The notes under the pieces were generated by a model. It worked only from the letters and a program-made list of their open reading frames with translations. It did not search any database and was not told the DNA's origin. DNA of 42,798 nucleotides, from NCBI GenBank assembly GCA_020348925.1, contig CP070758.1:1387157-1429954 (forward strand). The letters are read 5' to 3'. How positions within the stretch are numbered: the first letter of the stretch is position 1; each line of letters begins with the position of its first letter. Origin of the DNA: Gemmatimonadota bacterium. Its GTDB lineage: Bacteria; JBHIER01; G020348925. The position numbers and the translations under genes were made by a program. Shown piece by piece: positions 262 through 42,798 of the stretch.

Positions 262-384
262 TGCATAGTTCGTGATGTGTGAAGCTTCGCAGACACATCC
301 TGGAATTGAATGGGAAATACAATGACTCGGTACGAGGTCGATGAATTGATAGGTATGCGGACCTGATTGGCGGGGAGGGACGTG

Positions 385-3300
385 GTGAAATTTGTAAAAC
401 ATATTTTTTTCCTTTCAGTGCTCTCTTCTTTTTCCCTGTATTGCAGCGGAGCGCTTTGTGACCAACTCCCGACGCCTGGACAATACGGGGGCACAACATC
501 GCAGGGCCACCCTGTTTCCTTCAGCGTGACACACAGTGGATTCGTGGAAAACTTCTGTATCATCCTGGACTACAGCTGCGATGATTGCTCGGGGAACAAA
601 GAGATGTGTTTTGTGACCGAACAGTTCCAGATAACACAGAACCGTTTCCAGTACGATGCTCAGACACCGAACAGATTTGAACTGGGTGGACGTTTTTTCA
701 CGGAGTCGAATGCCTCCGGATTTCTGTATTACGTGACCGATCAGATATGCGGGTCCTGCGACAATTACGTCACCTGGAACACAACCTGTCTTGAATGCAC
801 ACCATCGATCACGATCACATCACCCAACGGTGGTGAACGATGGATCGCCGGTGCGATTCATCCCATTGCATGGATATACACCGGTCAGTTGCCGTTTTTA
901 GAAATTTCTTATAGTGTCCAGAGCGGGCAGTCGTGGATCACCATCGTTGATACCACGGCGAATATGGGTTCTTACCTGTGGACCGTTCCGGGCACACCTT
1001 CCGATTCCTGTCTCGTTCGGATCCGGAGTGTGGGTGACACGACGGTGACCGATGAGAGCGATGAGCCCTTCTCAATATGCATGCAACCGTTCATTACCGT
1101 CCTTTCTCCCAACGGAGGTGAGAGATGGTTCCAGGGCGATGAGAACACGGTGCAGTGGACGTGGGAGGGGTGCCTCGATTCCGTGGCTCTCGACTATACC
1201 GTTGACGGCGGTCAGATATGGATGCGTCTTGCGGAGAGCGTGCCAAACACCGGAACCTTTGCCTGGAGTATTCCCCAGACCCCTTCCTCCGACTGCTTTG
1301 TCCGTGTTTCGGACGTGACCGATGATGCTGTTTTCGACTCCAGCGACGCTCCGTTTCGAATCTGCGCTGACCTCTCACTGACGGTTCTGTCACCGAACGG
1401 AGGCGAGGAATGGATCGTTGGGAGTTCCCAACCGATCATGTGGGCCTCGTCCGAATGTGTCGATGAGGTGACTCTTGCGTATTCGATCGACAGTGGGGGT
1501 GATTGGATCCCCATCGCTTCAGAGGTGCCTGACACCGGTTCCTATGTGTGGCTCGTTCCTGATACTCCGTCCGCCGCGTGTCTGGTCAAGGTGTGGGACG
1601 CAGGCGATGCAGCCGTCGTCGATTCGAGCGACGATGTTTTTTCCGTGTGTCAGGAGCCGTCCGTCCAGGTTCTGTGGCCGAACGGAGGGGAGAGGGTCAT
1701 TGTCGATAGCGATCATGATATCCAATGGCTTTCGACGGGATGCATCCATGATGTGACGGTTCTGTATAGCGTCGACGCCGGTCAGAACTGGATTTCCGTA
1801 TCAGGCGGGACGCCTGATGACGGGACCTTTGAATGGACCATTCCGAACACTCCCTCAGCCGCGTGTCTTGTGAAAATCCATGTCTTCGGCGATACGACCC
1901 ACTTTGATGTGAGTGACAGCCTGTTCGCAATCGAATTGACGCCTGCGTTGACGCTTCTTGCACCGAATGGAGGGGAGGAGTGGTGGGTCGGGAATACCTA
2001 CGACGTTCTCTGGCAGAGCTGGGGGCCTGTGGGGGATGTGACGCTCGAGTATTCGACCGATAGCGGAGCAGGCTGGCAAGCTATTGCCGAGACGACCCAG
2101 AACACAGGTGTGTTCGAATGGAGCGTACCCTCCACACCGTCCAGCCTGTGCCTGGTCCGCATTAGTGACCTGCTGACAGGTACGGTTGCCGACACGAGTG
2201 ACAGCCTGTTCTCGATCGCGCCGGCACCGGAGCTTTCGCTCATTGCACCAAGCGGAGGTGAGCGGTGGTATATCGGAGGCCAGTACGATATTCAATGGTC
2301 CTTTTCAGGCTCGATTGACCTTATTGGGATTGAATACTCTCTCACAGGTGGTGCTGCTTGGATTGCGGTTGCGGAAAGCACCTCAAATGATGGTCTGTAC
2401 CGGTGGGAGATTCCCGAGACACCGTCGGAGCAGTGCCTCGTCCGCATCTATGACGTGGCCCATCCCGGAGTGGGTGACACGAGCGGGACCTTCATTATGA
2501 CTGTTCTCTCCGACATCACGCTGCACACTCCGAACGGGGGGGAGATCTGGCTTGTGGGGAGCACGTACGATATTGTCTGGTCGTCCGAAGGGTTGATCGA
2601 TCAAGTTTCCATCGCTTACTCTCACACCGGTGGCCTCTCCTGGATAACGATCAGAGACACGACGCTCAACGACGGTCTCCACGAATGGACCGTTCCAGCG
2701 CCTCCCTCTCTTTTGTGTCTCGTGCGCGTTTTCGACGTGACCGATCACAGTGTGGCCGACACGAGTGACAGTATTTTTACCGTTCGGGAGGCGCCGACCC
2801 TGTCCCTCGTATCGCCCAATGGCGGCGAAGAGTGGCGGGTGGCAGATGTGCGGCAGATCCTATGGTCATCCACCGGCCTCGTGCCGACCGTGACCATTGA
2901 ATATCGTGTAACGGATGACTCCGAGTGGATACCGGTTGTTGGCAATACTCCCAATGATGGGAATTACGCCTGGACGATCCCGAACAACCCGTCGACAGAA
3001 TGCTGGGTCCGAATGTATGATTCGACCGATTCCGACGTAGCCGATACCAGCGATAGCTCCTTCACGATACTCCCCTTTGAGATGATCCTCAAAGTCTCCG
3101 ACGGGAGCGGGAATTCGGGCAGCTCGGATAACAGGGTCCATATTCAGGGGGACACGCGGGTGAGTTTAAGCTCTCTTTCCTTCTCCTTAGCATACGATCC
3201 GAGTGTTCTGACGGCGACGAGTATCGTTGGGACCGAGCGCGTGGCCGACATGTCCCGTTTTTGGTGGGATCATACGGCACCGGGAAGTTTGGGTGTGATC

Positions 3301-5949
3301 CTTGAAGATGGGATTCTTCCCGCAGGTGAGGGTGTGCTCGTGTCGGTGCTCTTCGATGTTTCAGGGACCGCCCTTCCCGGTGAATATGGGCTGGCCCTGT
3401 CCGCCTGTGCTCTCCGGGATACATTGGGGCGCGAATCTCTTCTGTGTGCCACTGAGGATGGGATCTTTACAGTCTATCCCAGGGAAACTTTTTCGATTGC
3501 AGGTGCTATCCGCGACAACAGCGGTCAGGGTGTGGAAGGTGTTACGGTCACCTTAATGGGCGACAGCTCAGAGGTCTTCACGACGTCGGCGAGCGGTTTG
3601 TACCAGTTTCACCAACTAGCGACCGGGGAGTACAGCGTGCTGCCTAGAAAAGGGTGCTGGACCTTTCAGCCACCCTGGCGTCACTACACCTCCCTCGATA
3701 CGAATTATGATCATGAAGATTTCAAGGGATTCACTCTGGGGCGCTCTTTCCTCGGTTGGACTGAGGGTGTGGGAGAGACAGAACTGAGGGACGGAGCGTT
3801 GGAGGATACATTTGCCGTCTGGTTTGATCCCGGTCTGCCCTGCTCGCTCTATGCTGTCGAAGCGGCCTTCAACACGCCGGGGACAATCATGATTTTTGTG
3901 TGGGATGCAGGACCCAATGCACCTCACCATGGCGTGGCTCCGGAGAGGGGTACGTTTCCCGGGTCACCTCTCGGTGATCCGATCGTTGGTCCTTTTCCCT
4001 TCACGGTTCAAGGCAGCGGTGACTGGGAGCGTCTCAACCTTGTTCAGACCGGTTCCGTTCCGGTGTTCGGAGGTCCGGATGAACCCGGGCGTTCCTTCTT
4101 CGTGGGATGGGTCAAGGTCGTTCCTGGTCCGTATCCTGACAACGTGCCCCATGTCTTGGGACAACAGGTCTTGTCAGATGCGACGCATTCCTGGTTCGGC
4201 GGACCGTGGATCGGACCCGGGGGACCGGATGAGAGAGAGCACCCTTGGGGGGGGTACGGAGGCAGTCTCAACGGATCCCCGCCTGTGGAGTATGCTGTCA
4301 GACTGGATGTCTCGTTTCCCTGGTGTCCCCTCGTTGTCTCCGCGGGTCTGCCAGATGTGGCCGGCGATGAGGGAGATACACTCTCTGTCCCGCTCTATGT
4401 CTATTCAAATGTTACGGGTTTGGACGTTCGCTCGTACGCCTGTGAAATCGGCTATGATGAAACCCTTTTGGAGGTACATGGGTGTGTCAGCCTGCCAGGT
4501 GATATGACGCGGGATTGGGGGGCGCCGACGTGCCAGGCGGATGTCCCTGGCAGACTGATGCTCAGCCAGGCAGGATCGTCGGCCCTGGTGGGAACGGGGA
4601 TGCTCATCCATCTGCAATTTCGGCTCTTGAGCGGTTGGAGAGAATGCAGCGATCTCACCTTTGTCGAATTTGTGTTCAATGATGGTACACCTCAGGTGAG
4701 CGCTGGGAACGGCCGCATCTGCGTGGAGGCGGGGAGTCAGCGGTGTCACATCTCCGGCCGCGTTCTCCATTATGCCACTCGCAATCCTGTTGCTGAAACC
4801 GACCTTGTGTTTTCCGCCGGCGATTCGGACACGATCCAGACGGACGGTGACGGGTTCTATATCTTCGAGCGGCGGTTGTGCTCCCTCGATGATACACTGT
4901 GTGCTTCCATGCGAGATTATCCGTCTCATGGTGTGACGGCCTATGATGCGGCCCTGGTCGCTCAGACGGCAGCCGGGATGATAACCCTCTCCCCGCTGCA
5001 GCACATTGCCGGTGATGTGAGTGCCAATTGTGCTGTCTCCACCTACGATGCTGCTCTCATTGCCCGGTATGCCGCCGAGCTCATCTCGTCCTTTCCCACA
5101 GGACCGTGGATGATGGTGCCTGAGAAGGAGACCGTCACCGAAGAAAACTGGTGTTCCGTGCCCTCCTGTTTGATGCATACGCCGCTGGCAATGAACAGAG
5201 ACGGACAGGACTTTCTGGCGGTTCCGGTGGGGGATGTGAGCGGCAACTGGAGCTCCGCCCGGCGCATGTTTCCGAAGTCCCCGCCGATACCGCTGTGGCA
5301 GGACATGATCCTCACCAGGGGGCAAGTCTGTACCCTTCCTCTCCTGCTGGCCCAGGAAGAGGAGATCGTGGCTCTTGATCTCGGATTGACGTACGATCCT
5401 TCCGTGCTCACTCTGGAGGCGGCTTCCCGGACGGCAGCCACAGAGGATTTCATGTTGGTTGTGAACCATCGAGCCGGAGGCGCTGCCCTTTCCCTGTACG
5501 GCCGTTCTCCTGTCAGAGGATCGGAGGCTGTGCTCGAACTCCGGTTTCTCGTCATCGGTGAAGAAGGTGCAAGAAGCCTGCTCAAGGTGAACAAGCTGCT
5601 CGTCAATGAAAGGTCCGTTGCCGTTGCCGAGACACGGCTGTCTGTGAGAGGGAACCTTCCCCACGAATATGGTCTGGAACAGAATGTGCCCAACCCCTTC
5701 AATCCTGTAACGACCATTCGATATCATATACCACGGACCGATGGACCGGTTCGCGCCACGCTCACCCTGTATAATGTCCTGGGACAGGAGATAAAGAGAT
5801 TGGTTGAGGACGATCACGCAGCGGGTACGTACGACGTCGTATGGGACGGAACGGACGACAAAGGATGTAAGGTCTCCAGCGGTATCTATTTCTACCGACT
5901 GGGAACGGACACGTTTGTGCAGACTCGAAAAATGGTCTACTTACGGTAA
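385..5949 (+). CDS. Giant exported multidomain surface protein with T9SS-type C-terminal domain
   Basis: About 1854 residues. I chose GTG 385 because GGGGAGGGA lies at 372-380; an in-frame TTG at 367 is the longer alternative. A hydrophobic signal peptide covers residues 1-25, followed by a Cys-rich N-terminal domain (about 26-140). Eight Ig-like repeats of about 95 residues follow (about 140-896), each opening with a PNGGE[RE]W-like motif and resembling the Kre9/KNH-like family. Then come a cohesin-like domain (about 900-1030), a carboxypeptidase-regulatory-like domain (about 1033-1116), an unrecognised beta-rich domain (about 1117-1312), a second cohesin-like domain (about 1314-1450), a dockerin-like pair with two xxYDAALxA helices (about 1500-1565), and a third cohesin-like domain. 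The C terminus (about 1761-1854) has NVPNPFNP and ends RKMVYLR, typical of FlgD-like / type IX sorting domains. The protein is likely anchored or released at the cell surface by a T9SS-like route. The next surface-protein gene follows after 40 nt, so the two are probably one operon. Confidence 0.9.
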   Translation: MKFVKHIFFLSVLSSFSLYCSGALCDQLPTPGQYGGTTSQGHPVSFSVTHSGFVENFCIILDYSCDDCSGNKEMCFVTEQFQITQNRFQYDAQTPNRFELGGRFFTESNASGFLYYVTDQICGSCDNYVTWNTTCLECTPSITITSPNGGERWIAGAIHPIAWIYTGQLPFLEISYSVQSGQSWITIVDTTANMGSYLWTVPGTPSDSCLVRIRSVGDTTVTDESDEPFSICMQPFITVLSPNGGERWFQGDENTVQWTWEGCLDSVALDYTVDGGQIWMRLAESVPNTGTFAWSIPQTPSSDCFVRVSDVTDDAVFDSSDAPFRICADLSLTVLSPNGGEEWIVGSSQPIMWASSECVDEVTLAYSIDSGGDWIPIASEVPDTGSYVWLVPDTPSAACLVKVWDAGDAAVVDSSDDVFSVCQEPSVQVLWPNGGERVIVDSDHDIQWLSTGCIHDVTVLYSVDAGQNWISVSGGTPDDGTFEWTIPNTPSAACLVKIHVFGDTTHFDVSDSLFAIELTPALTLLAPNGGEEWWVGNTYDVLWQSWGPVGDVTLEYSTDSGAGWQAIAETTQNTGVFEWSVPSTPSSLCLVRISDLLTGTVADTSDSLFSIAPAPELSLIAPSGGERWYIGGQYDIQWSFSGSIDLIGIEYSLTGGAAWIAVAESTSNDGLYRWEIPETPSEQCLVRIYDVAHPGVGDTSGTFIMTVLSDITLHTPNGGEIWLVGSTYDIVWSSEGLIDQVSIAYSHTGGLSWITIRDTTLNDGLHEWTVPAPPSLLCLVRVFDVTDHSVADTSDSIFTVREAPTLSLVSPNGGEEWRVADVRQILWSSTGLVPTVTIEYRVTDDSEWIPVVGNTPNDGNYAWTIPNNPSTECWVRMYDSTDSDVADTSDSSFTILPFEMILKVSDGSGNSGSSDNRVHIQGDTRVSLSSLSFSLAYDPSVLTATSIVGTERVADMSRFWWDHTAPGSLGVILEDGILPAGEGVLVSVLFDVSGTALPGEYGLALSACALRDTLGRESLLCATEDGIFTVYPRETFSIAGAIRDNSGQGVEGVTVTLMGDSSEVFTTSASGLYQFHQLATGEYSVLPRKGCWTFQPPWRHYTSLDTNYDHEDFKGFTLGRSFLGWTEGVGETELRDGALEDTFAVWFDPGLPCSLYAVEAAFNTPGTIMIFVWDAGPNAPHHGVAPERGTFPGSPLGDPIVGPFPFTVQGSGDWERLNLVQTGSVPVFGGPDEPGRSFFVGWVKVVPGPYPDNVPHVLGQQVLSDATHSWFGGPWIGPGGPDEREHPWGGYGGSLNGSPPVEYAVRLDVSFPWCPLVVSAGLPDVAGDEGDTLSVPLYVYSNVTGLDVRSYACEIGYDETLLEVHGCVSLPGDMTRDWGAPTCQADVPGRLMLSQAGSSALVGTGMLIHLQFRLLSGWRECSDLTFVEFVFNDGTPQVSAGNGRICVEAGSQRCHISGRVLHYATRNPVAETDLVFSAGDSDTIQTDGDGFYIFERRLCSLDDTLCASMRDYPSHGVTAYDAALVAQTAAGMITLSPLQHIAGDVSANCAVSTYDAALIARYAAELISSFPTGPWMMVPEKETVTEENWCSVPSCLMHTPLAMNRDGQDFLAVPVGDVSGNWSSARRMFPKSPPIPLWQDMILTRGQVCTLPLLLAQEEEIVALDLGLTYDPSVLTLEAASRTAATEDFMLVVNHRAGGAALSLYGRSPVRGSEAVLELRFLVIGEEGARSLLKVNKLLVNERSVAVAETRLSVRGNLPHEYGLEQNVPNPFNPVTTIRYHIPRTDGPVRATLTLYNVLGQEIKRLVEDDHAAGTYDVVWDGTDDKGCKVSSGIYFYRLGTDTFVQTRKMVYLR

Positions 5950-5989
5950 TGGATATGATGAGTGCGGTTGGTCTCTTGCGGGAATCAGA

Positions 5990-8900
5990 ATGAAGAAGAA
6001 TCGTCGCACAGTTCTCTTTGTTGCACTGACGTCCCTCGTTCTCCTTGCCGGATTGGATGCGACAGCCGTTGTTGTCACCGTTCCGGATACGACCCTGCGG
6101 ACAGGCACATCATTTTTGCTCCCCATTCGAGTGGATCAACTCTCGGACAGAGGTATCATCGCCTATCAGTTTCGGCTGGAGTTTGACGCCGACGTGCTCA
6201 GGATGGTGGGGGTGGAGAGGGAGGGGTGCTTGGGGAATCAGTGGGGTGAACCGACTGCGAATATGAGCATACCAGGGACCATTATCGTGGTTCAATACGG
6301 TATTGCTCCCCTTTCAGGAAGCGGCGATCTCATCAAACTGGAGTGTGACGTCATCGGGAATCCCCGCGATACGACGCAGCTGTCCTTCGATTCGTTCGTC
6401 TTCAATGACGGCGAGCCTCAGGCCGAGATGACAGATCCCGTGGCCATCTTCACCGTGACCTCCACGGGGGTACCCATTCTGGCTGTCTCTCCGGATACCA
6501 TTGACTTCGGCGCATTGGATACCTTGAGATCCTTCTCCGTTGCGAACGAAGGCGTCGGAGACTTGAACTGGAATGTTCTTGAGGATCCTGATATACCCTG
6601 GATTGTGACCGTTGACCCCTTGTCCGGAGCTTCTGACGATACGGTGACGGTGACTGTCTCCCGCGAGGGCATGAGTTTCGGATTTTATTCAGGGCTTCTG
6701 ACGGTTCAATCCGATGGTGGGCGAAGGGGGGTTGTTGTGAAAATGACCGTTCCTCAAGAATTTTTCATAGTGTCCGTCACCGTTCCCGATACGTCCCAGT
6801 ACACGAGCCGGTGGGTGGAGCTTCCTATCATGCTTGATGATGTCACGGACATGGAAATTATTGCCTATCAATTTGCCCTCCGCTATGATGCGGATGTGGT
6901 GAATATTGTCGGGGCCACGACGCACAATTCTTTAAGCGCAGGCTGGGGGGATGCGGAGGTGAATACCGATACCACCGGTCAAATCGGCGTGGCGCATTAT
7001 GGGGCGACACCTCTCTCCGGCGAAGGGACCCTCATCTCCCTTATCTGCTATGCCGTGGGCAATCCTGGTGATGCCACGGCTCTCAGTTTCGATCGATTTC
7101 TGTTCAACGACGGATACCCCCACGCGGAATGGACGACACCTGCGGCCACCTTTTCGGTCGACACGGCGGATGTGCCCCTCATTTTTCTATCGCCCTCAGT
7201 CCTCGACTTCGGGACGACGCAGACCGTGAACGCGTTCAACATCCGCAATGTCGGTACCGACACCCTGAAGTGGGCTGTTTCCGAGGATCCTGAGGTGGAG
7301 TGGATCACTTCCGTTTCGCCACGCTCCGGTGTGGGGGAAGGGACTGTTACTGTCGCGGTCAGCCGTATCGGCCTGGCGCCGGGTCTGTACTCGGGGAAGG
7401 TCTCGGTCACATCGAACGGCGGCGACGGAAGCATCACCGTGGCCCTGTCAGCGCCTGATGGGGGTCGACGCGTCCGTCTGTCGTTGCCGGACACCAGCGG
7501 AGCGGTCGCCAGTGAGCTCATAATTCCTGTCAGGGTCAATGATGTGTCCACTTTCGGCATTGTCGAATTTGAGTTAACACTCCTCTATGATGACGGCGTC
7601 TTGGAGGTTCTCGAGGCCCTCTCGGGGATGACGCTGAGTGCTGTCTGGGGACCACCCACATGGGACAGTCCCGCACCCGGTCACGTTCGCGTTGTCCATC
7701 AAGGACAACCGCCCTTGACCGGGAGCGGAACAATCGTTGGTTTCAGAATACGGGCCATTGGAGATCCTGAGAATACCAGTGAGTTGCGTTTTTCGAACGT
7801 GCTCATGAACGGGGACGCCGGTGTTTCCCAGTACAATACGCCGGCCGGCCTGTTCACGGTAGAACGTCCCGATTACCCTGTCCTTTCCGCAACACCGCTT
7901 TCCCTCGATTTTGGATCCGAGGCCACGACGAGGAATTTTTCCATTCGGAATGTCGGATCAGGCACACTTCGCTGGTCCATCTTCGAAAGCCCGGAAAAGA
8001 ATTGGATCGTTTCAATATTTCCCACGGACGGCCAGAATCAAAGAACTGTGACGGTCATTATCGATCGAGCATATCTCTACCCTGACGTCTATACCGGGAC
8101 ATTGCACATCGCATCGAACGGGGGGAATCAGAACATCAGCGTGCGGATGGAGGTTGTGGCGAGCGATACACTTCCACCCTATTTGGCCTTCAGCAGTCCG
8201 CAACATCATGCCGTCGGTATGGCCCGAAACATGCCCGTCTTCGTCATCATTGACGATGAGGACTCCAGCGTGCTTCCGAGCAGTGTGGGCGTTACGGTGG
8301 ATTCGGATACCATTGTGTCAGAGGGTGAGGATCGTACGGCCGGGGCTGTTCGATTCGTACCAAGGAACCGGGGAATAAGTCTTGTGTATACTCCCCTGAC
8401 GCTGTTTGACGAGAACTCTGAGGTGGTGATCTCTCTGACTGCCGAGGACACAGCGCTTCCTTCTCGTGTGTATGAGGGATCCTTTTCCTTTACAACCGGC
8501 TCCGCGACGGTGGAAGTTATTGCGGAGGCACTGTTGGCGTCCGAGGGTGGGACCGTGGATGATCCGGACGGTGTGTTCGTCACTTTACCCCCGGGTGTTC
8601 TCGCGGATAGTCTGACGGTTCTCGTAGGCACGGTGACGGCCCCACCGCAGCTCCCGGACTCACTGCTCTCCGTCGGCAGGACCTCTTTCTTCGGACCCGA
8701 GGGTCTGACCTTTTGCCCCTTACCCGGAGTAGGGCGGCTTGTTTACACTGACGAGGATCTCGCAGAAGCCGGAATTGTTGATGCCTTGGGCCTGATGGTT
8801 TTTTCTTTCAACTCTGAAAGCGGAGGGTGGGAAGAACGGCAGATTTTAAGCAATGATACCAACAGCGGGACCATCCTCTTTCAGATCTGTCGACTCGGGT

Positions 8901-9271
8901 ATGTCACCCTGGCCATCGCCCAGACGACCTCGGTTCAGGACGAGCGGAGGGATGAACGGATTCCCCTCACGTACCGTTTCATGTCCTGCCAACCCAACCC
9001 TTTCAACCCAACAACGTCCCTTCCTTTCCATATTCCTGACGTCCGTTTCCCTGTGGAGGTCACCCTTCGCATCTACAATGTACTCGGTGAGGAGATCCGT
9101 ACTCTTATTCGGCAGCGACTTCCCGGAGGCCGGTACACAGCGATCTGGGATGGATGCGACGGGAAGGGTAGGGATGTGCCCAGCGGAGTCTATTTTTGCA
9201 GGATGTCGGTGCAAGATGAACAGGGTTTCGAGGTCTTCGTCCAGACACAGAAAATGCTCTTCTTGAAATAA
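5990..9271 (+). CDS. Exported cohesin/BACON-repeat surface protein with T9SS-type C-terminal domain
   Basis: 1093 residues from ATG 5990 (MKKNRRTVLF...). The open frame extends upstream into the preceding gene, but this ATG begins a clear signal peptide (residues 1-27). The body is three units of a cohesin-like domain (about 28-160, 263-394, 493-626) followed by a BACON-type domain (about 161-252, 396-486, 628-722); each BACON unit has the 'LDFG ... NVG...LxW ... SxGG' pattern. An Ig-like domain starting at DTLPPYLAFSSP covers about 722-839. A ZU5-like domain (about 841-980) is recognised by GGTVDDPDG, LPPGVL and FGPEGLTF. The C-terminal FlgD-like sorting domain (about 988-1093) has CQPNPFNP and ends QTQKMLFLK. 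It shares module types with the gene upstream and is probably exported to the surface by the same machinery. The ligand is unknown; cohesin and BACON modules suggest protein-protein or glycan contacts. Confidence 0.88.
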   Translation: MKKNRRTVLFVALTSLVLLAGLDATAVVVTVPDTTLRTGTSFLLPIRVDQLSDRGIIAYQFRLEFDADVLRMVGVEREGCLGNQWGEPTANMSIPGTIIVVQYGIAPLSGSGDLIKLECDVIGNPRDTTQLSFDSFVFNDGEPQAEMTDPVAIFTVTSTGVPILAVSPDTIDFGALDTLRSFSVANEGVGDLNWNVLEDPDIPWIVTVDPLSGASDDTVTVTVSREGMSFGFYSGLLTVQSDGGRRGVVVKMTVPQEFFIVSVTVPDTSQYTSRWVELPIMLDDVTDMEIIAYQFALRYDADVVNIVGATTHNSLSAGWGDAEVNTDTTGQIGVAHYGATPLSGEGTLISLICYAVGNPGDATALSFDRFLFNDGYPHAEWTTPAATFSVDTADVPLIFLSPSVLDFGTTQTVNAFNIRNVGTDTLKWAVSEDPEVEWITSVSPRSGVGEGTVTVAVSRIGLAPGLYSGKVSVTSNGGDGSITVALSAPDGGRRVRLSLPDTSGAVASELIIPVRVNDVSTFGIVEFELTLLYDDGVLEVLEALSGMTLSAVWGPPTWDSPAPGHVRVVHQGQPPLTGSGTIVGFRIRAIGDPENTSELRFSNVLMNGDAGVSQYNTPAGLFTVERPDYPVLSATPLSLDFGSEATTRNFSIRNVGSGTLRWSIFESPEKNWIVSIFPTDGQNQRTVTVIIDRAYLYPDVYTGTLHIASNGGNQNISVRMEVVASDTLPPYLAFSSPQHHAVGMARNMPVFVIIDDEDSSVLPSSVGVTVDSDTIVSEGEDRTAGAVRFVPRNRGISLVYTPLTLFDENSEVVISLTAEDTALPSRVYEGSFSFTTGSATVEVIAEALLASEGGTVDDPDGVFVTLPPGVLADSLTVLVGTVTAPPQLPDSLLSVGRTSFFGPEGLTFCPLPGVGRLVYTDEDLAEAGIVDALGLMVFSFNSESGGWEERQILSNDTNSGTILFQICRLGYVTLAIAQTTSVQDERRDERIPLTYRFMSCQPNPFNPTTSLPFHIPDVRFPVEVTLRIYNVLGEEIRTLIRQRLPGGRYTAIWDGCDGKGRDVPSGVYFCRMSVQDEQGFEVFVQTQKMLFLK

Positions 9272-39155: not shown

Positions 39156-39184
39156 TTGACTTTTACCCCAGAATAGTATATGCT
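39156..39184 (+). promoter_or_regulatory. Promoter of the integron integrase fragment
   Basis: TTGACT (39156-39161), 17 nt, TATGCT (39179-39184), with a start near 39191, 24 nt before ATG 39215. It still looks intact although the gene is truncated. Confidence 0.6.
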
Positions 39185-39214: not shown

Positions 39215-39427
39215 ATGACATCTCATTTGTTAATGACGGAATTTCCCTTGGAAAGAATCCCGAATATTGAACGAGCTGGCATACTCGTTCGAAAAGCGAA
39301 ACTATTGGATCAGATGAGGCAAGCTCTGCGATCCCGCCATTACGGCCGCCGGACCGAGCAGACGTATTGCCAGTGGGTGAAGCGGTTTGGGAGTTTGGAG
39401 TCAGAGTCCAAATTTTCTCATGGTTGA
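39215..39427 (+). pseudogene. Truncated integron integrase (N-terminal fragment)
   Basis: 70 codons. The residues AKLLDQMRQALRSRHYGRRTEQTYCQWVKRF match the start of IntI tyrosine recombinases, i.e. the SAM-like N-terminal DNA-binding domain (about residues 20-60 here). After VKRF the homology stops; the last 15 codons (FGSLESESKFSHG) are unrelated and end in a stop, so the central domain and the R-H-R-Y catalytic domain are gone. The break lies about 40 bp before an inverted repeat and a tandem 12-mer. It is on the same strand as the cassettes, unlike class 1 integrons where intI faces away from the array. No complete integrase is in the window, so the array is not self-mobile here. Confidence 0.75.
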
Positions 39428-39452
39428 AACAATAAGGCTGCAGATAATTAGA

Positions 39453-39491
39453 GTCAAGCGGAGACTTGACCCCTTTGAAGACCCCTTTGAA
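39453..39491. repeat. Inverted repeat and tandem 12-mer after the integrase break
   Basis: GTCAAG (39453-39458) and CTTGAC (39465-39470) form a 6-bp inverted repeat. The last bases of the second arm begin a perfect tandem duplication GACCCCTTTGAA (39468-39479 and 39480-39491). The pattern resembles the end of a small transposed element, which may have broken the integrase; no transposase is present. Confidence 0.5.
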
Positions 39492-39570
39492 CATACTCAT
39501 GTTCTCAATCGAGGTGGAAAGGGAGTAAAAAGCCCAATGGATGGTTTGAAGAGTGAACAAAAATAGCCAT

Positions 39571-39725
39571 GTCTTATACAGACCGTATAAGACACAATGG
39601 AGTCTGAACATTAAAACGGAACACATTATGGTTCCAATGACTTAGGACACAAATAACCGAATAGTCTTATATAGCTGAAGCTCATGCGGAGCTTTCTTAT
39701 ACAGACTGTATATTCATTGTTGGGC
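39571..39725 (+). repeat. attI-like region with repeated TCTTATA motifs and core site
   Basis: GTCTTATAC-AGACC-GTATAAGAC (39571-39593) is a 9-bp inverted repeat. Related motifs recur as TCTTATATAG (39665-39674) and TCTTATACAGACT-GTATA (39695-39712). Integron attI sites carry such direct repeats that bind IntI, followed by a core GTTRRRY; GTTGGGC lies at 39719-39725 and fits the core exactly. It is the left boundary of cassette 1. The region has no gene. Confidence 0.55.
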
Positions 39726-40667
39726 AACTTAGCGAGGTGCACCCATTGAACAGCCACAGTCCGATTCATCCCAGAGATGTGCCGACTCCGTTCTTTGTGC
39801 TATTGGAGACGATCTGAAGCATTTCTTCATTCCGATGGTCGGTCTCCAAGTAACAGTATCTCCACCCACGGCGAACGTGCTCGGATCGGGCACGCTGGTC
39901 AAGGTTGCGCGCGAGTCCTTCATTCTGACCGCAGCCCACGTTTGGGAGTTTGCTCAGGCATACCCGTCCATTGGACTGGTCCGGGTTGGCTCACCCTCCA
40001 TCGTTACCGTGAGACGCGATTTCATTGTCCCGCAAACCCTGGGCCGGGCGCCATTCGGCGAATGGGGGCCCGACTTGGCACTCCTCAAGATTCCTTATCC
40101 CGACTCCGGCACTTTGCTAGCGAGACAGTCCGCTCTAGATCTCGTCGCGGAACGTGGAAGTACACCAGCTCATCCACCCAGCAGCGATGCAGGCTTCTGG
40201 GTCACGCTCGGTGTGGTCGCTGAGCGCAGTGACATCGCGTTTGACCTTACTGAGCGTGAGATGTCCATAACAATTGACGGTCCACCGAGTTTCTCTCCTC
40301 GGGCGGTGCTACGGCAGAACGGTGCATTTGACTATCGTGACGTATCATTCGATCCAGGGATCTCATTCAACCCACAAAGTCATGGGGGAACAAGCGGTGC
40401 AGGCCTCTGGTTGGTCCCTTTGTCCCGCGACGCGAATGGCACCGTGGTCTGGCGAGGTGCGAGGATCTTCCAGGGAGTAGCATTCTGGGAGCAACGAGAG
40501 TCCCCTGAAGATGGGTTCATTCGATGCCATGGAGCGGACAGCCTCTTCAAGGTCGCGTGGGAAACATGGGGGTTGCCCAACAAGTAAATGCACCCGACAG
40601 CCGCTGCCTCGCCAGAAGATCAAGACGTTTGATTGCTAGGTGGTTGCTGCTGCGGGTGATTTGCAGG
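39720..40667 (+). mobile_element. Integron gene cassette 1 (trypsin-like protease)
   Basis: The cassette begins with TTGGGC and ends at the G of the attC core at 40667, 948 bp. G plus its first six bases (GTTGGGC) is the exact reverse complement of the R'' box GCCCAAC (40575-40581) of attC1, which proves that the two ends belong to the same circularised unit. It holds one gene, starting about 25 nt after the boundary. Confidence 0.85.
39745..40587 (+). CDS. Trypsin-like (S1-fold) serine protease, cassette 1
   Basis: 250 residues if started at ATG 39835, 280 if started at ATT 39745. I favour ATT 39745: the in-frame stop TAG is at 39730, GAGGTG lies 5 nt before the ATT, and the extra 30 residues (EQPQSDSSQRCADSV...DDLKHFF) lead directly into the domain. 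No ATG, GTG or TTG occurs in frame between the stop and 39835; CTG 39814 is another option. The catalytic triad is visible (ATG-based numbering): His in LTAAHVW (about residue 35), Asp in GPDLALLKI (about 79), Ser in GGTSGAGLW (about 190). There is no signal peptide, so it would be cytoplasmic, a feature of some defence or housekeeping trypsin-like proteases. The stop lies inside attC1. Confidence 0.7.
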   Translation: MEQPQSDSSQRCADSVLCAIGDDLKHFFIPMVGLQVTVSPPTANVLGSGTLVKVARESFILTAAHVWEFAQAYPSIGLVRVGSPSIVTVRRDFIVPQTLGRAPFGEWGPDLALLKIPYPDSGTLLARQSALDLVAERGSTPAHPPSSDAGFWVTLGVVAERSDIAFDLTEREMSITIDGPPSFSPRAVLRQNGAFDYRDVSFDPGISFNPQSHGGTSGAGLWLVPLSRDANGTVVWRGARIFQGVAFWEQRESPEDGFIRCHGADSLFKVAWETWGLPNK

Positions 40668-40673
40668 TTAGCT
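40575..40673 (+). repeat. attC1 recombination site
   Basis: R'' GCCCAAC (40575-40581) and R' GTTAGCT (40667-40673) enclose an imperfect palindrome of 99 bp: AAATGCACCCG on the left pairs with CGGGTGATTTGCA on the right with bulges. The G at 40667 is the cut base. The TTAGCT of R' belongs to the next cassette. Confidence 0.75.
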
Positions 40674-41744
40674 ACACGGCAATAGGATAAAGAGATGAAA
40701 TTCACCGAAATTCAAGATGCACTTAGAGACATTGGATGGCGTGAGTTTGAGAGTTTCGTAGTTGATGCTCTTTGTGCAATGGATCGATTTTCGGATATTC
40801 GGCATAACAGCGTCATGGGGGGGCATCAGATCGATGTAGTCGCAGAGGAAAAGGACCCTCTGTCGAGCACACCAGTTCGGTGGTTATTCGAGATTAAGGC
40901 GTGGAAGAGGAGAATAGGACGAGAGGTAATAGAACGTCTACACTTCTTGAGTCAGTCACTTGGTGGATCACCACACGGACAACGCGTCGTACTGGTATGC
41001 AACATCCCGCCGACTAAAAGCGCAGCAATGATGGCACGACAGTTCGGGATTGAAATCTGGGACCCTCTGAAATTAATTGAGCTAGTCCCCTCACAAGTGT
41101 TACAGAAGTACTTTGGAAGTGACGCCTCCAGTGCCTTGCCGGATAGAGAGAGTGAGACTAAGACGCGAGCGTTTCATGAGTCTCTTAGTAAGCTGCGTCC
41201 AGGCCGGAATGATTGGTTTTCTTACCAACGACTCGTTTCCGAGATGTTCGAATATCTGTTTTGCCCACCACTTGAGTCTCCACGTGACGAAGTACCAGAT
41301 GCTGATGCTCGAAATAGACGAGATATTATTCTTGAAAACGGGGCACCAGATGGATTCTGGAGTCGCTTGAGAACCACTTACGCTGCTGATTTCGTTGTTG
41401 TATATGCGAAGAACTACGTTGCACCGCTCAAAAAAACGCCAATACTTGACGTTGCGCATTACCTTAAGCCGCACGGTTGCGGGATGTTCGCGATAATTGC
41501 TTCTCGTTCTGGCGCTGGTCCCTCTGCGATCCATGCTGTAAGAGAACAGTGGATAGCATCACGTAAAATGATACTTGTACTTGATGATCAAAATCTGAAG
41601 GACATGATTGATCTGAAGCAAGAAGCTGGTGATCCGGAAGATTTACTTAGACGTCATATAGCTGAATTTCGTATGTCGTTGTGACTCGGTAGCTAACAAG
41701 GCAAATTCAGCCGACGCAAAAAGCCGCGCGGCTGATTAGCACCG
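40668..41744 (+). mobile_element. Integron gene cassette 2 (two REase-like domains)
   Basis: 1077 bp, from TTAGCT (40668) to the G at 41744. G plus TTAGCT = GTTAGCT is the exact reverse complement of R'' AGCTAAC (41691-41697), so the ends match. The single gene begins 27 nt after the boundary. Confidence 0.88.
40695..41684 (+). CDS. Protein with two restriction endonuclease-like domains, cassette 2
   Basis: 329 residues; AGGATAAAGAG lies just before ATG 40695. The N-terminal half (about 10-120) has an Mrr/REase-like nuclease core: GGHQIDVVAEE (Asp) then RWLFEIKAWK (E-x-K), and VVLVCNIPPT as the next strand. The C-terminal half (about 165-320) repeats the pattern: RRDIILENG, then ADFVVVYAKNY, then CGMFAIIASRSG. 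In the second domain E-x-K reads Y-A-K, so Glu is lost while Lys stays. The first domain can be catalytic, the second probably not and may bind DNA. Such proteins in integron cassettes are candidates for antiphage defence; this is inference. Confidence 0.7.
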   Translation: MKFTEIQDALRDIGWREFESFVVDALCAMDRFSDIRHNSVMGGHQIDVVAEEKDPLSSTPVRWLFEIKAWKRRIGREVIERLHFLSQSLGGSPHGQRVVLVCNIPPTKSAAMMARQFGIEIWDPLKLIELVPSQVLQKYFGSDASSALPDRESETKTRAFHESLSKLRPGRNDWFSYQRLVSEMFEYLFCPPLESPRDEVPDADARNRRDIILENGAPDGFWSRLRTTYAADFVVVYAKNYVAPLKKTPILDVAHYLKPHGCGMFAIIASRSGAGPSAIHAVREQWIASRKMILVLDDQNLKDMIDLKQEAGDPEDLLRRHIAEFRMSL

Positions 41745-41750
41745 TTAGGC
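41691..41750 (+). repeat. attC2 recombination site
   Basis: R'' AGCTAAC (41691-41697), R' GTTAGGC (41744-41750), 60 bp. Inner arms TCAGCCG (41707-41713) and CGGCTGA (41729-41735) pair perfectly, and the outer arms pair with one bulge. TTAGGC belongs to the following cassette. Confidence 0.9.
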
Positions 41751-42699
41751 CGATTTTATAGATTTATATCCTGATATAAGCAGGAGGAGATAACAATGGA
41801 AGTTAAACAGGTAAAACTCATCTATTTTTCACCTACTGGAACCACTCAAAAAGTACTGGAAAGTATCGCTGAAGGTATCGCTGTTGAAGATGTCGAGCAT
41901 ATTAATTTCACACTTCCGGAGGGAGCTCAGCAAATCATTCCACCATTCTCAGATGAACTCGTCATTATAGGTGCGCCTGTTTACGGTGGCCGTCTTCCAG
42001 TTGATGTAATCAAACGATTCAAACAGTTGAAAGCAAGCAACACCTTGGCGATTATCATCGTTGTATATGGGAACCGGGAGTTTGAAGATGCGTTGTTAGA
42101 ATTAAAAAATCTTGCACTTGAGTTGGGCTTTAGTCCGGTTGCCGGTGGTGCATTCATTGGGGAGCACTCTTTTGCAACAGAGGAGGTCTCCATCGCAAAT
42201 GGACGTCCGGATAGCCTGGATGTACAAAAGGCAATAGATTTTGGAGTAAAAGTTAAAGATAGAATCACAGCGTTACAATCACCTGATGCCCAAATTGATT
42301 TGGATATTCCCGGCAGATTTCCATATGAAGCAGACGGAGCGCGAGCTATGGCTGTTTCACCAGTGACCAAAGAAGACACATGCACAGTTTGTGATACGTG
42401 TGCCAGTGTATGTCCAACTGCAGCCATTTCAATTAATGAGAGCGTGGCAACAAAAATCGAGCTATGCATCCGCTGTTGCGCTTGCATTAAATACTGTCCC
42501 GAAAAGGCAAGGGTCATGGAAGACGAGATGTGGAAAAATATTGCCAACTGGTTAAATGAAAATTGCAATGCTCGGAAGGAACCTCGAATTTTTGGGGTGG
42601 ATCTGTAGGATCCAATTTTGTAAAGTTCTTGTTCGTCTAGCATATGGCCTAACAATGCCTTCGAGGCGACGTCCTAAAGGCCGCGCCTCAAGGCAGGCG
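41745..42699 (+). mobile_element. Integron gene cassette 3 (flavodoxin-ferredoxin)
   Basis: 955 bp, TTAGGC (41745) to the G at 42699. G plus TTAGGC = GTTAGGC is the exact reverse complement of R'' GCCTAAC (42647-42653). It holds one gene. Confidence 0.9.
41796..42608 (+). CDS. EFR1-type flavodoxin-ferredoxin fusion, cassette 3
   Basis: 270 residues; GCAGGAGGAGA lies 6 nt before ATG 41796. The N-terminal flavodoxin-like domain (about 1-150) has the FMN phosphate loop YFSPTGTTQ (10-18), and GAPVYGGRLP and GGAFIGEHSF for the flavin ring. The C-terminal part (about 185-245) has two [4Fe-4S] motifs: CTVCDTCASVCP and CIRCCACIKYCP. This is the EFR1-like ferrodoxin architecture, which transfers electrons between FMN and two clusters in the cytoplasm. 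It is an unusual cargo for an integron cassette and may connect to the low-potential metabolism of the host. Confidence 0.85.
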   Translation: MEVKQVKLIYFSPTGTTQKVLESIAEGIAVEDVEHINFTLPEGAQQIIPPFSDELVIIGAPVYGGRLPVDVIKRFKQLKASNTLAIIIVVYGNREFEDALLELKNLALELGFSPVAGGAFIGEHSFATEEVSIANGRPDSLDVQKAIDFGVKVKDRITALQSPDAQIDLDIPGRFPYEADGARAMAVSPVTKEDTCTVCDTCASVCPTAAISINESVATKIELCIRCCACIKYCPEKARVMEDEMWKNIANWLNENCNARKEPRIFGVDL

Positions 42700-42705
42700 T
42701 TCGGT
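42647..42705 (+). repeat. attC3 recombination site (59-base element)
   Basis: R'' GCCTAAC (42647-42653), R' GTTCGGT (42699-42705), exactly 59 bp. The arms TGCCTTCGAGGCG and CGCCTCAAGGCA pair fully except for one extra C, the extrahelical base known to direct strand choice in attC recombination. TTCGGT belongs to cassette 4. Confidence 0.9.
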
Positions 42706-42730
42706 GCAGAGGAAATCTGCGAAACTTGAC

Positions 42731-42759
42731 TTGACAATAGCTTGGAATGTAATTACATT
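42731..42759 (+). promoter_or_regulatory. Promoter and palindromic operator of the MazE-like gene
   Basis: TTGACA (42731-42736), 17 nt, TACATT (42754-42759). The start would fall at about 42766, the A of the ATG, so the mRNA may be leaderless. The perfect 14-bp palindrome AATGTAATTACATT (42746-42759) covers the -10, where an AbrB/MazE-type protein would repress its own gene. Confidence 0.7.
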
Positions 42760-42765
42760 GTATCT

Positions 42766-42798
42766 ATGAAAACAACGATCGTCAGAATTGGCAATTCG
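42766..42798 (+). CDS. MazE/AbrB-like antitoxin, start of cassette 4 (partial)
   Basis: 11 codons, cut by the window end: MKTTIVRIGNS. The pattern MxTxIxRIGNS is the start of AbrB-fold antitoxins of the MazE type, whose beta-strands bind the operator as a dimer. A toxin gene (MazF or VapC type) should follow directly. It has its own promoter, as toxin-antitoxin cassettes usually do because their position in an array does not guarantee transcription. Confidence 0.6.
   Translation, partial: MKTTIVRIGNS

Follow-up and report, generated by a model that had tools for sequence, protein, structure and literature searches.

Gene cassettes and attC sites

The stretch analysed here (the window, 42,798 nucleotides of a Gemmatimonadota genome) is exactly one contig, bounded at both ends by gaps of 100 N, the right-hand one starting at 42799. 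Its right-hand end holds a cassette array, array A, in which a promoter, both ends of an integrase gene (intI), the core of an attI site, three complete cassettes with their attC sites and a truncated fourth cassette can be read directly; all lie on the plus strand. Cohesin and FlgD-Ig domains occur in two very large ORFs, of 1860 and 1155 aa, towards the other end of the window (367-9271); their products are likely secreted or surface proteins.

Cassette 1 (39720-40667) carries an ORF of 250 aa (39835-40587) whose match to trypsin-like peptidases is weak and does not reach the curated cut-off; a plasmid search found no homologue of the protein. Cassette 2 (40668-41744; ORF 40695-41684, 329 aa) encodes an Mrr-type restriction endonuclease domain with a C-terminal region like the candidate defence family PDC-M36A. 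For this protein plasmids gave weak matches only, in Agrobacterium and a few others (the best among the matches listed being 24%), and a search of viral contigs gave no match. Cassette 3 (41745-42699; ORF 41796-42608, 270 aa) encodes a flavodoxin and 4Fe-4S protein resembling EFR1, at a score short of the family cut-off. For integrons this is ordinary cargo: what may be a peptidase, a restriction-type enzyme combined with a candidate defence domain, and a flavodoxin-ferredoxin protein.

Cassette 4 begins at 42700, as an earlier note on this DNA had claimed, and the contig stops at 42798, 98 bases into it; these 98 bases had no match in the plasmids searched. A promoter-like TTGACA-17-TACATT (42731-42759) lies ahead of an ORF (MKTTIVRIGNS..., from 42766) that is cut by the contig end and whose start we take to be antitoxin-like. 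This motif suggests that cassette 4 has a promoter of its own, which is common among toxin-antitoxin cassettes.

The earlier note placed attC1 at 40575-40673 (99 bp), attC2 at 41691-41750 (60 bp) and attC3 at 42647-42705 (59 bp), and re-reading of the sequence returned exactly these positions and lengths. The complementarity that it described between each cassette start and the R'' box of the same cassette also holds, the pairs GTTGGGC/GCCCAAC, GTTAGCT/AGCTAAC and GTTAGGC/GCCTAAC being exact reverse complements. Over the nine complete cassettes from all arrays found in the genome, such own-cassette complementarity extends to 33 of 36 variable positions and is exact in six of nine cassettes (permutation P = 5e-6), against 14 of 36 variable positions for a control comparison of the two boxes within the same attC. 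The inner stem of the attCs is 98.6% paired over 16 sites, and both-sided changes at six of nine pairs indicate covariation.

An independent covariance model, R1, was trained on 13 known attCs, taken from class 1 integrons and from a Desulforapulum plasmid, and no site of the window went into it. Its score was 55.8 bits for attC2 (E 2.6e-10) and 39.1 bits for attC3 (E 2.4e-6); attC1 obtained 11.5 bits, a noise-level score, with its 3' end wrongly placed. The identity of attC1 therefore rests on the boundary rule and on its stem AAAT[G]CACCCG/CGGGTGATTT, in which ten pairs and one extrahelical base were read by hand and which was also scored. The high scores of all three attCs under a further model, R2, are circular, since R2 includes the window sites. 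Taken together, boundaries, R1, covariation and the permutation describe an array of cassettes each closed by an attC.

The closest relatives of attC2 are attCs of mobile and Desulfobacterales cassettes. In the class 1 integron on the E. coli plasmid NZ_AP024115, a methyltransferase cassette has an attC that shares 93% identity with attC2 over 57 bp, and six places on the Desulforapulum autotrophicum plasmid pHRM2a match attC2 (best 84%). An unrelated genome also has, on an AT-rich contig of 5.4 kb, an attC with 94% identity to attC2 across 54 bp. A search of plasmid sequences with attC3 returned no match. R1 finds sites in nine of 58 other genomes, a cross-domain sample, in some of them as pairs on one contig.

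Remnants of the integrase gene, its promoter and attI

The region before cassette 1 retains the two ends of intI, a feature absent from the earlier note, which likewise made no mention of the direction of intI (that of the cassettes), of attI or of similar platforms elsewhere in the genome. The presumed original intI promoter, TTGACT-17-TATGCT (39156-39184), is conserved in sequence and recurs, its spacer again 17 bp long, at B, at F and in two orphan copies. The N-terminal remnant (39215-39397) lies on the same strand as the cassettes, about 320 bp ahead of cassette 1; its bases 39302-39397 cover IntI profile positions 1-31, with matches to TIGR02249 (E 2.2e-5), PRK15417 (E 3.2e-6) and the SAM-like N-terminal domain (E 7.5e-8). 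Some 94 bases of filler (39398-39491) then stand in place of about 265 integrase codons. This filler includes a genomic repeat of about 30 bp, REP-like in character (GACTTGACCCCTTTGA / GAGTCAARCGGAGACTTGACCCCTTTGA; window 39450-39480), that also occurs at genome positions 3329822 and 2905230. The C-terminal remnant, HTHVLNRGGKGVKSPMDGLKSEQK followed by a stop codon (39492-39566), corresponds to TIGR02249 positions 297-315 (E 0.003) and has His at the position of the catalytic Tyr. Profile positions 32-296 are missing, and with them a complete IntI with its IntI-specific domain. In the PDB the array A N-terminal and array B C-terminal fragments match one protein alone, V. cholerae IntI4, the former at residues 6-33 and the latter at 301-318; with E values of 1.5 and 0.15, it is the position on IntI4 and not the score that counts as evidence.

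The attI core, TTCTTATACAGACTGTATATTCATTG|TTGGGC (39694-39725), is cut between 39719 and 39720, so that cassette 1 starts at the G|TT of an attI lying beside intI. Since the intI ends are on the plus strand and attI follows the stop codon, intI reads towards attI. The core sequence ATATTCATTGTTGGGC is exact at array B and has one mismatch at site F. The attI region also contains a 9-bp inverted repeat, GTCTTATAC-AGACC-GTATAAGAC (39571-39593). Repeats of TCTTATACNGA were observed in the attI regions of A (39571-39593 and 39694-39708), B and F; they may serve the integrase as accessory sites or be bound by a regulator.

A profile search of the assembly for an intact IntI elsewhere found none, and a genome-wide search for the IntI C-terminal codons found them at A and B only, plus F below significance (E 0.8). 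Two full-length integrase matches were rejected as IntI. Neither covers profile positions 185-241, close to the IntI-specific domain (residues 186-245 in VchIntIA; PMC3108266), and for that reason they look like XerC/XerD.

Other platforms in the genome

Array B (genome 1024489-1019762, minus strand) consists of the promoter, twelve codons, MIYTHVLNRGGKSIRSPVVNL and the core ATATTCATTG|TTGGGC, identical to that of array A; exact copies of this 16-mer were sought genome-wide and none exist beyond these two. Promoter, intI C-terminal codons and attI are joined here by a deletion different from that of array A. The cassettes of array B encode a deaminase, an ABC transporter, a GNAT and an MFS protein, after which the array reaches a gap. 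Site F (genome 1992957) has the layout of array B, with the promoter, a weak integrase tail (IHILSRGG, E 0.8) and the core with TTCGGC; its contig stops at a gap 96 bases into the first cassette. The promoter is thus shared across platforms, and its present distance from cassette 1 is about 570 bp at A, 340 bp at B and 240 bp at F.

The left end of array C (genome 107161-109684) is lost in a gap. It comprises zinc-dehydrogenase and beta-lactamase-family (serine hydrolase) cassettes followed by a cupin gene, with two attCs (107989-109684) and one exact boundary pair. Remnant D (2528704-2530621) is a decayed single cassette with an orphan promoter downstream; at 2530615 it has a decayed attC and a core-like site with a single deviation from the 11-base core. 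Of the two orphan copies, each comprising promoter and leader, one is at 2528704 and the other at 243031. At the latter (region 242861-243123) an ORF start, MSSNFPLLDVSVAGLSYLQRAQVP, enters a gap (242861-242960) after 24 codons, which resemble the start of the array A integrase in a by-eye comparison; it is possible that an intact intI has been lost from the assembly at this point. The number of arrays is a lower bound, because 150 of 814 attC candidates were scored in the genome-wide search.

Assembly and host

The count of three cassettes in the earlier note holds for complete cassettes and is otherwise set by the contig end, which cuts cassette 4. Two attC-like sites, one at 43193-43326 and a weaker one near 44004-44127, lie beyond the right-hand gap together with a methyltransferase ORF, all in the same direction. 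This suggests that the array continues past the gap, without proving it, because all 39 gaps seen are of 100 N and contig order may be arbitrary. With the same reservation about contig order, ACCGAAC, the motif that the earlier note expected to open the attC of cassette 4, is absent from the plus strand of the scaffold over the next 17 kb. The last 98 bases of the window occur only once in the genome, which argues against an exact repeat as the cause of the contig end. Completeness of the assembly is 96.3%, and the number of gaps, extrapolated from 39 in 580 kb, is roughly 340. The platforms lie nearer to the next downstream gap than expected (summed P 0.002, or 0.012 without the putative intI start; the test was chosen post hoc).

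The suggestion of a poorly sampled host is borne out, as its order comprises one genome and all 58 of the nearest genomes searched share only the domain with it. A scan of the genome collection for named relatives with the alcohol dehydrogenase found none, and matches to AtpD in the collection are only 69-78% identical (78% being the maximum retrieved) and scattered over many phyla.

Discussion

We propose, with a probability of roughly two in three, that array A is a sedentary chromosomal integron with a Treponema-like gene order, whose platforms lost their integrases by separate deletions while promoter, attI and cargo were kept. The original order would have been that of Treponema, where intI reads towards attI (PMC3607928): promoter, intI directed towards attI, attI, and unidirectional cassettes. 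IntI would once have inserted the cassettes of array A; the integrases would afterwards have been deleted separately at each platform, leaving an array that is presumably now frozen. A full-length intI would place promoter and attI more than 1 kb apart, and its deletion would have shortened this distance such that the former intI promoter may now transcribe the first cassettes. Such co-option of the promoter is predicted from its position. Integrase loss is frequent because an active integrase is costly: active intI1 is quickly lost in culture, and in class 1 integrons selection against it is established (PMC3510236); 43-46% of intI homologs appear to be inactivated (PMC3108266). Two points weigh against this reading. 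An intact intI may be missing from an assembly that is 96.3% complete with some 340 gaps, one of which cuts off the ORF start behind the promoter copy at 243031, and some deletion edges are ambiguous, given the weak match at F and the His at the Tyr position in A.

The first of these points leads to a different account, in which the platforms are non-autonomous yet active and one intact IntI, hidden in an assembly gap, serves several attI sites and arrays in trans. The promoter and putative intI start that run into a gap at 243031 would supply such an enzyme, the attI cores of A and B are identical although their intI remnants are wrecked, and variation of cassette content between strains would cause contig breaks of the kind found near the platforms. 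However, the C-terminal end of IntI is absent elsewhere in the assembly, the breaks could stem from low coverage or repeats, the attC of D has decayed, and the match over 24 residues was judged by eye only. We consider this account unlikely, though a genuine contender; the distributed integron that it implies, several non-autonomous platforms with matching attI and gutted intI sharing one integrase in trans from a gap, is likewise rather unlikely.

The remaining explanations have far less to recommend them. The resemblance of attC2 to attCs of other phyla could reflect foreign cassettes inserted off target, a proposed route to CALINs (PMC8618304), with the integrase fragments as unrelated junk. 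That is very unlikely, because cassette 1 begins precisely at an attI core of which a second copy stands before array B, where promoter and intI end follow one another as they do in array A. The three canonical attCs and exact boundaries are also what a complete, working three-cassette integron would have, as the earlier note implied. Its cassettes, attCs and boundaries stand, but the internal deletion of intI means that there is no intact integron and rules out a working one at array A, where moreover the array reaches the contig end; we give this reading very little credence. Chance hairpins in place of attCs would account for the 11.5 bits of attC1 under R1, yet the permutation, the covariation and the R1 scores of attC2 and attC3 rule them out, and their probability is negligible.

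Loss of the integrase with retention of the array thus remains our preferred reading. The origin of a CALIN can rarely be traced. In this genome promoter, intI tail and attI have been kept on two platforms, and probably on a third, with the enzyme deleted differently in each. Integrase loss is in itself already common; what becomes directly testable is that a host may lose the cost and keep the cargo. The data also add a lineage without close relatives among the genomes searched to the carriers of integron cassettes.

Among known systems, the chromosomal integrons of Treponema (T. denticola, T. succinifaciens and a remnant in T. phagedenis) share the same-direction gene order. In T. phagedenis attCs and cassettes are kept and intI is absent (PMC3607928), whereas the present genome belongs to an unrelated lineage and preserves both intI ends, the promoter and attI, on more than one platform. 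The class 1 integron on NZ_AP024115 resembles array A in the attC close to attC2 but has an intact intI1 read away from the cassettes, is mobile and carries other cargo. The cassette region of pHRM2a is alike in its six places matching attC2 and differs in cargo. With three attCs and no intact intI, array A falls within the CALINs (at least two attCs, no intI), as an attC cluster without a scorable IntI, and IntegronFinder would probably call it so. It differs from a CALIN in keeping attI, promoter and intI ends in place, and because these remain, the route by which it arose, loss of intI, can be read at the locus.
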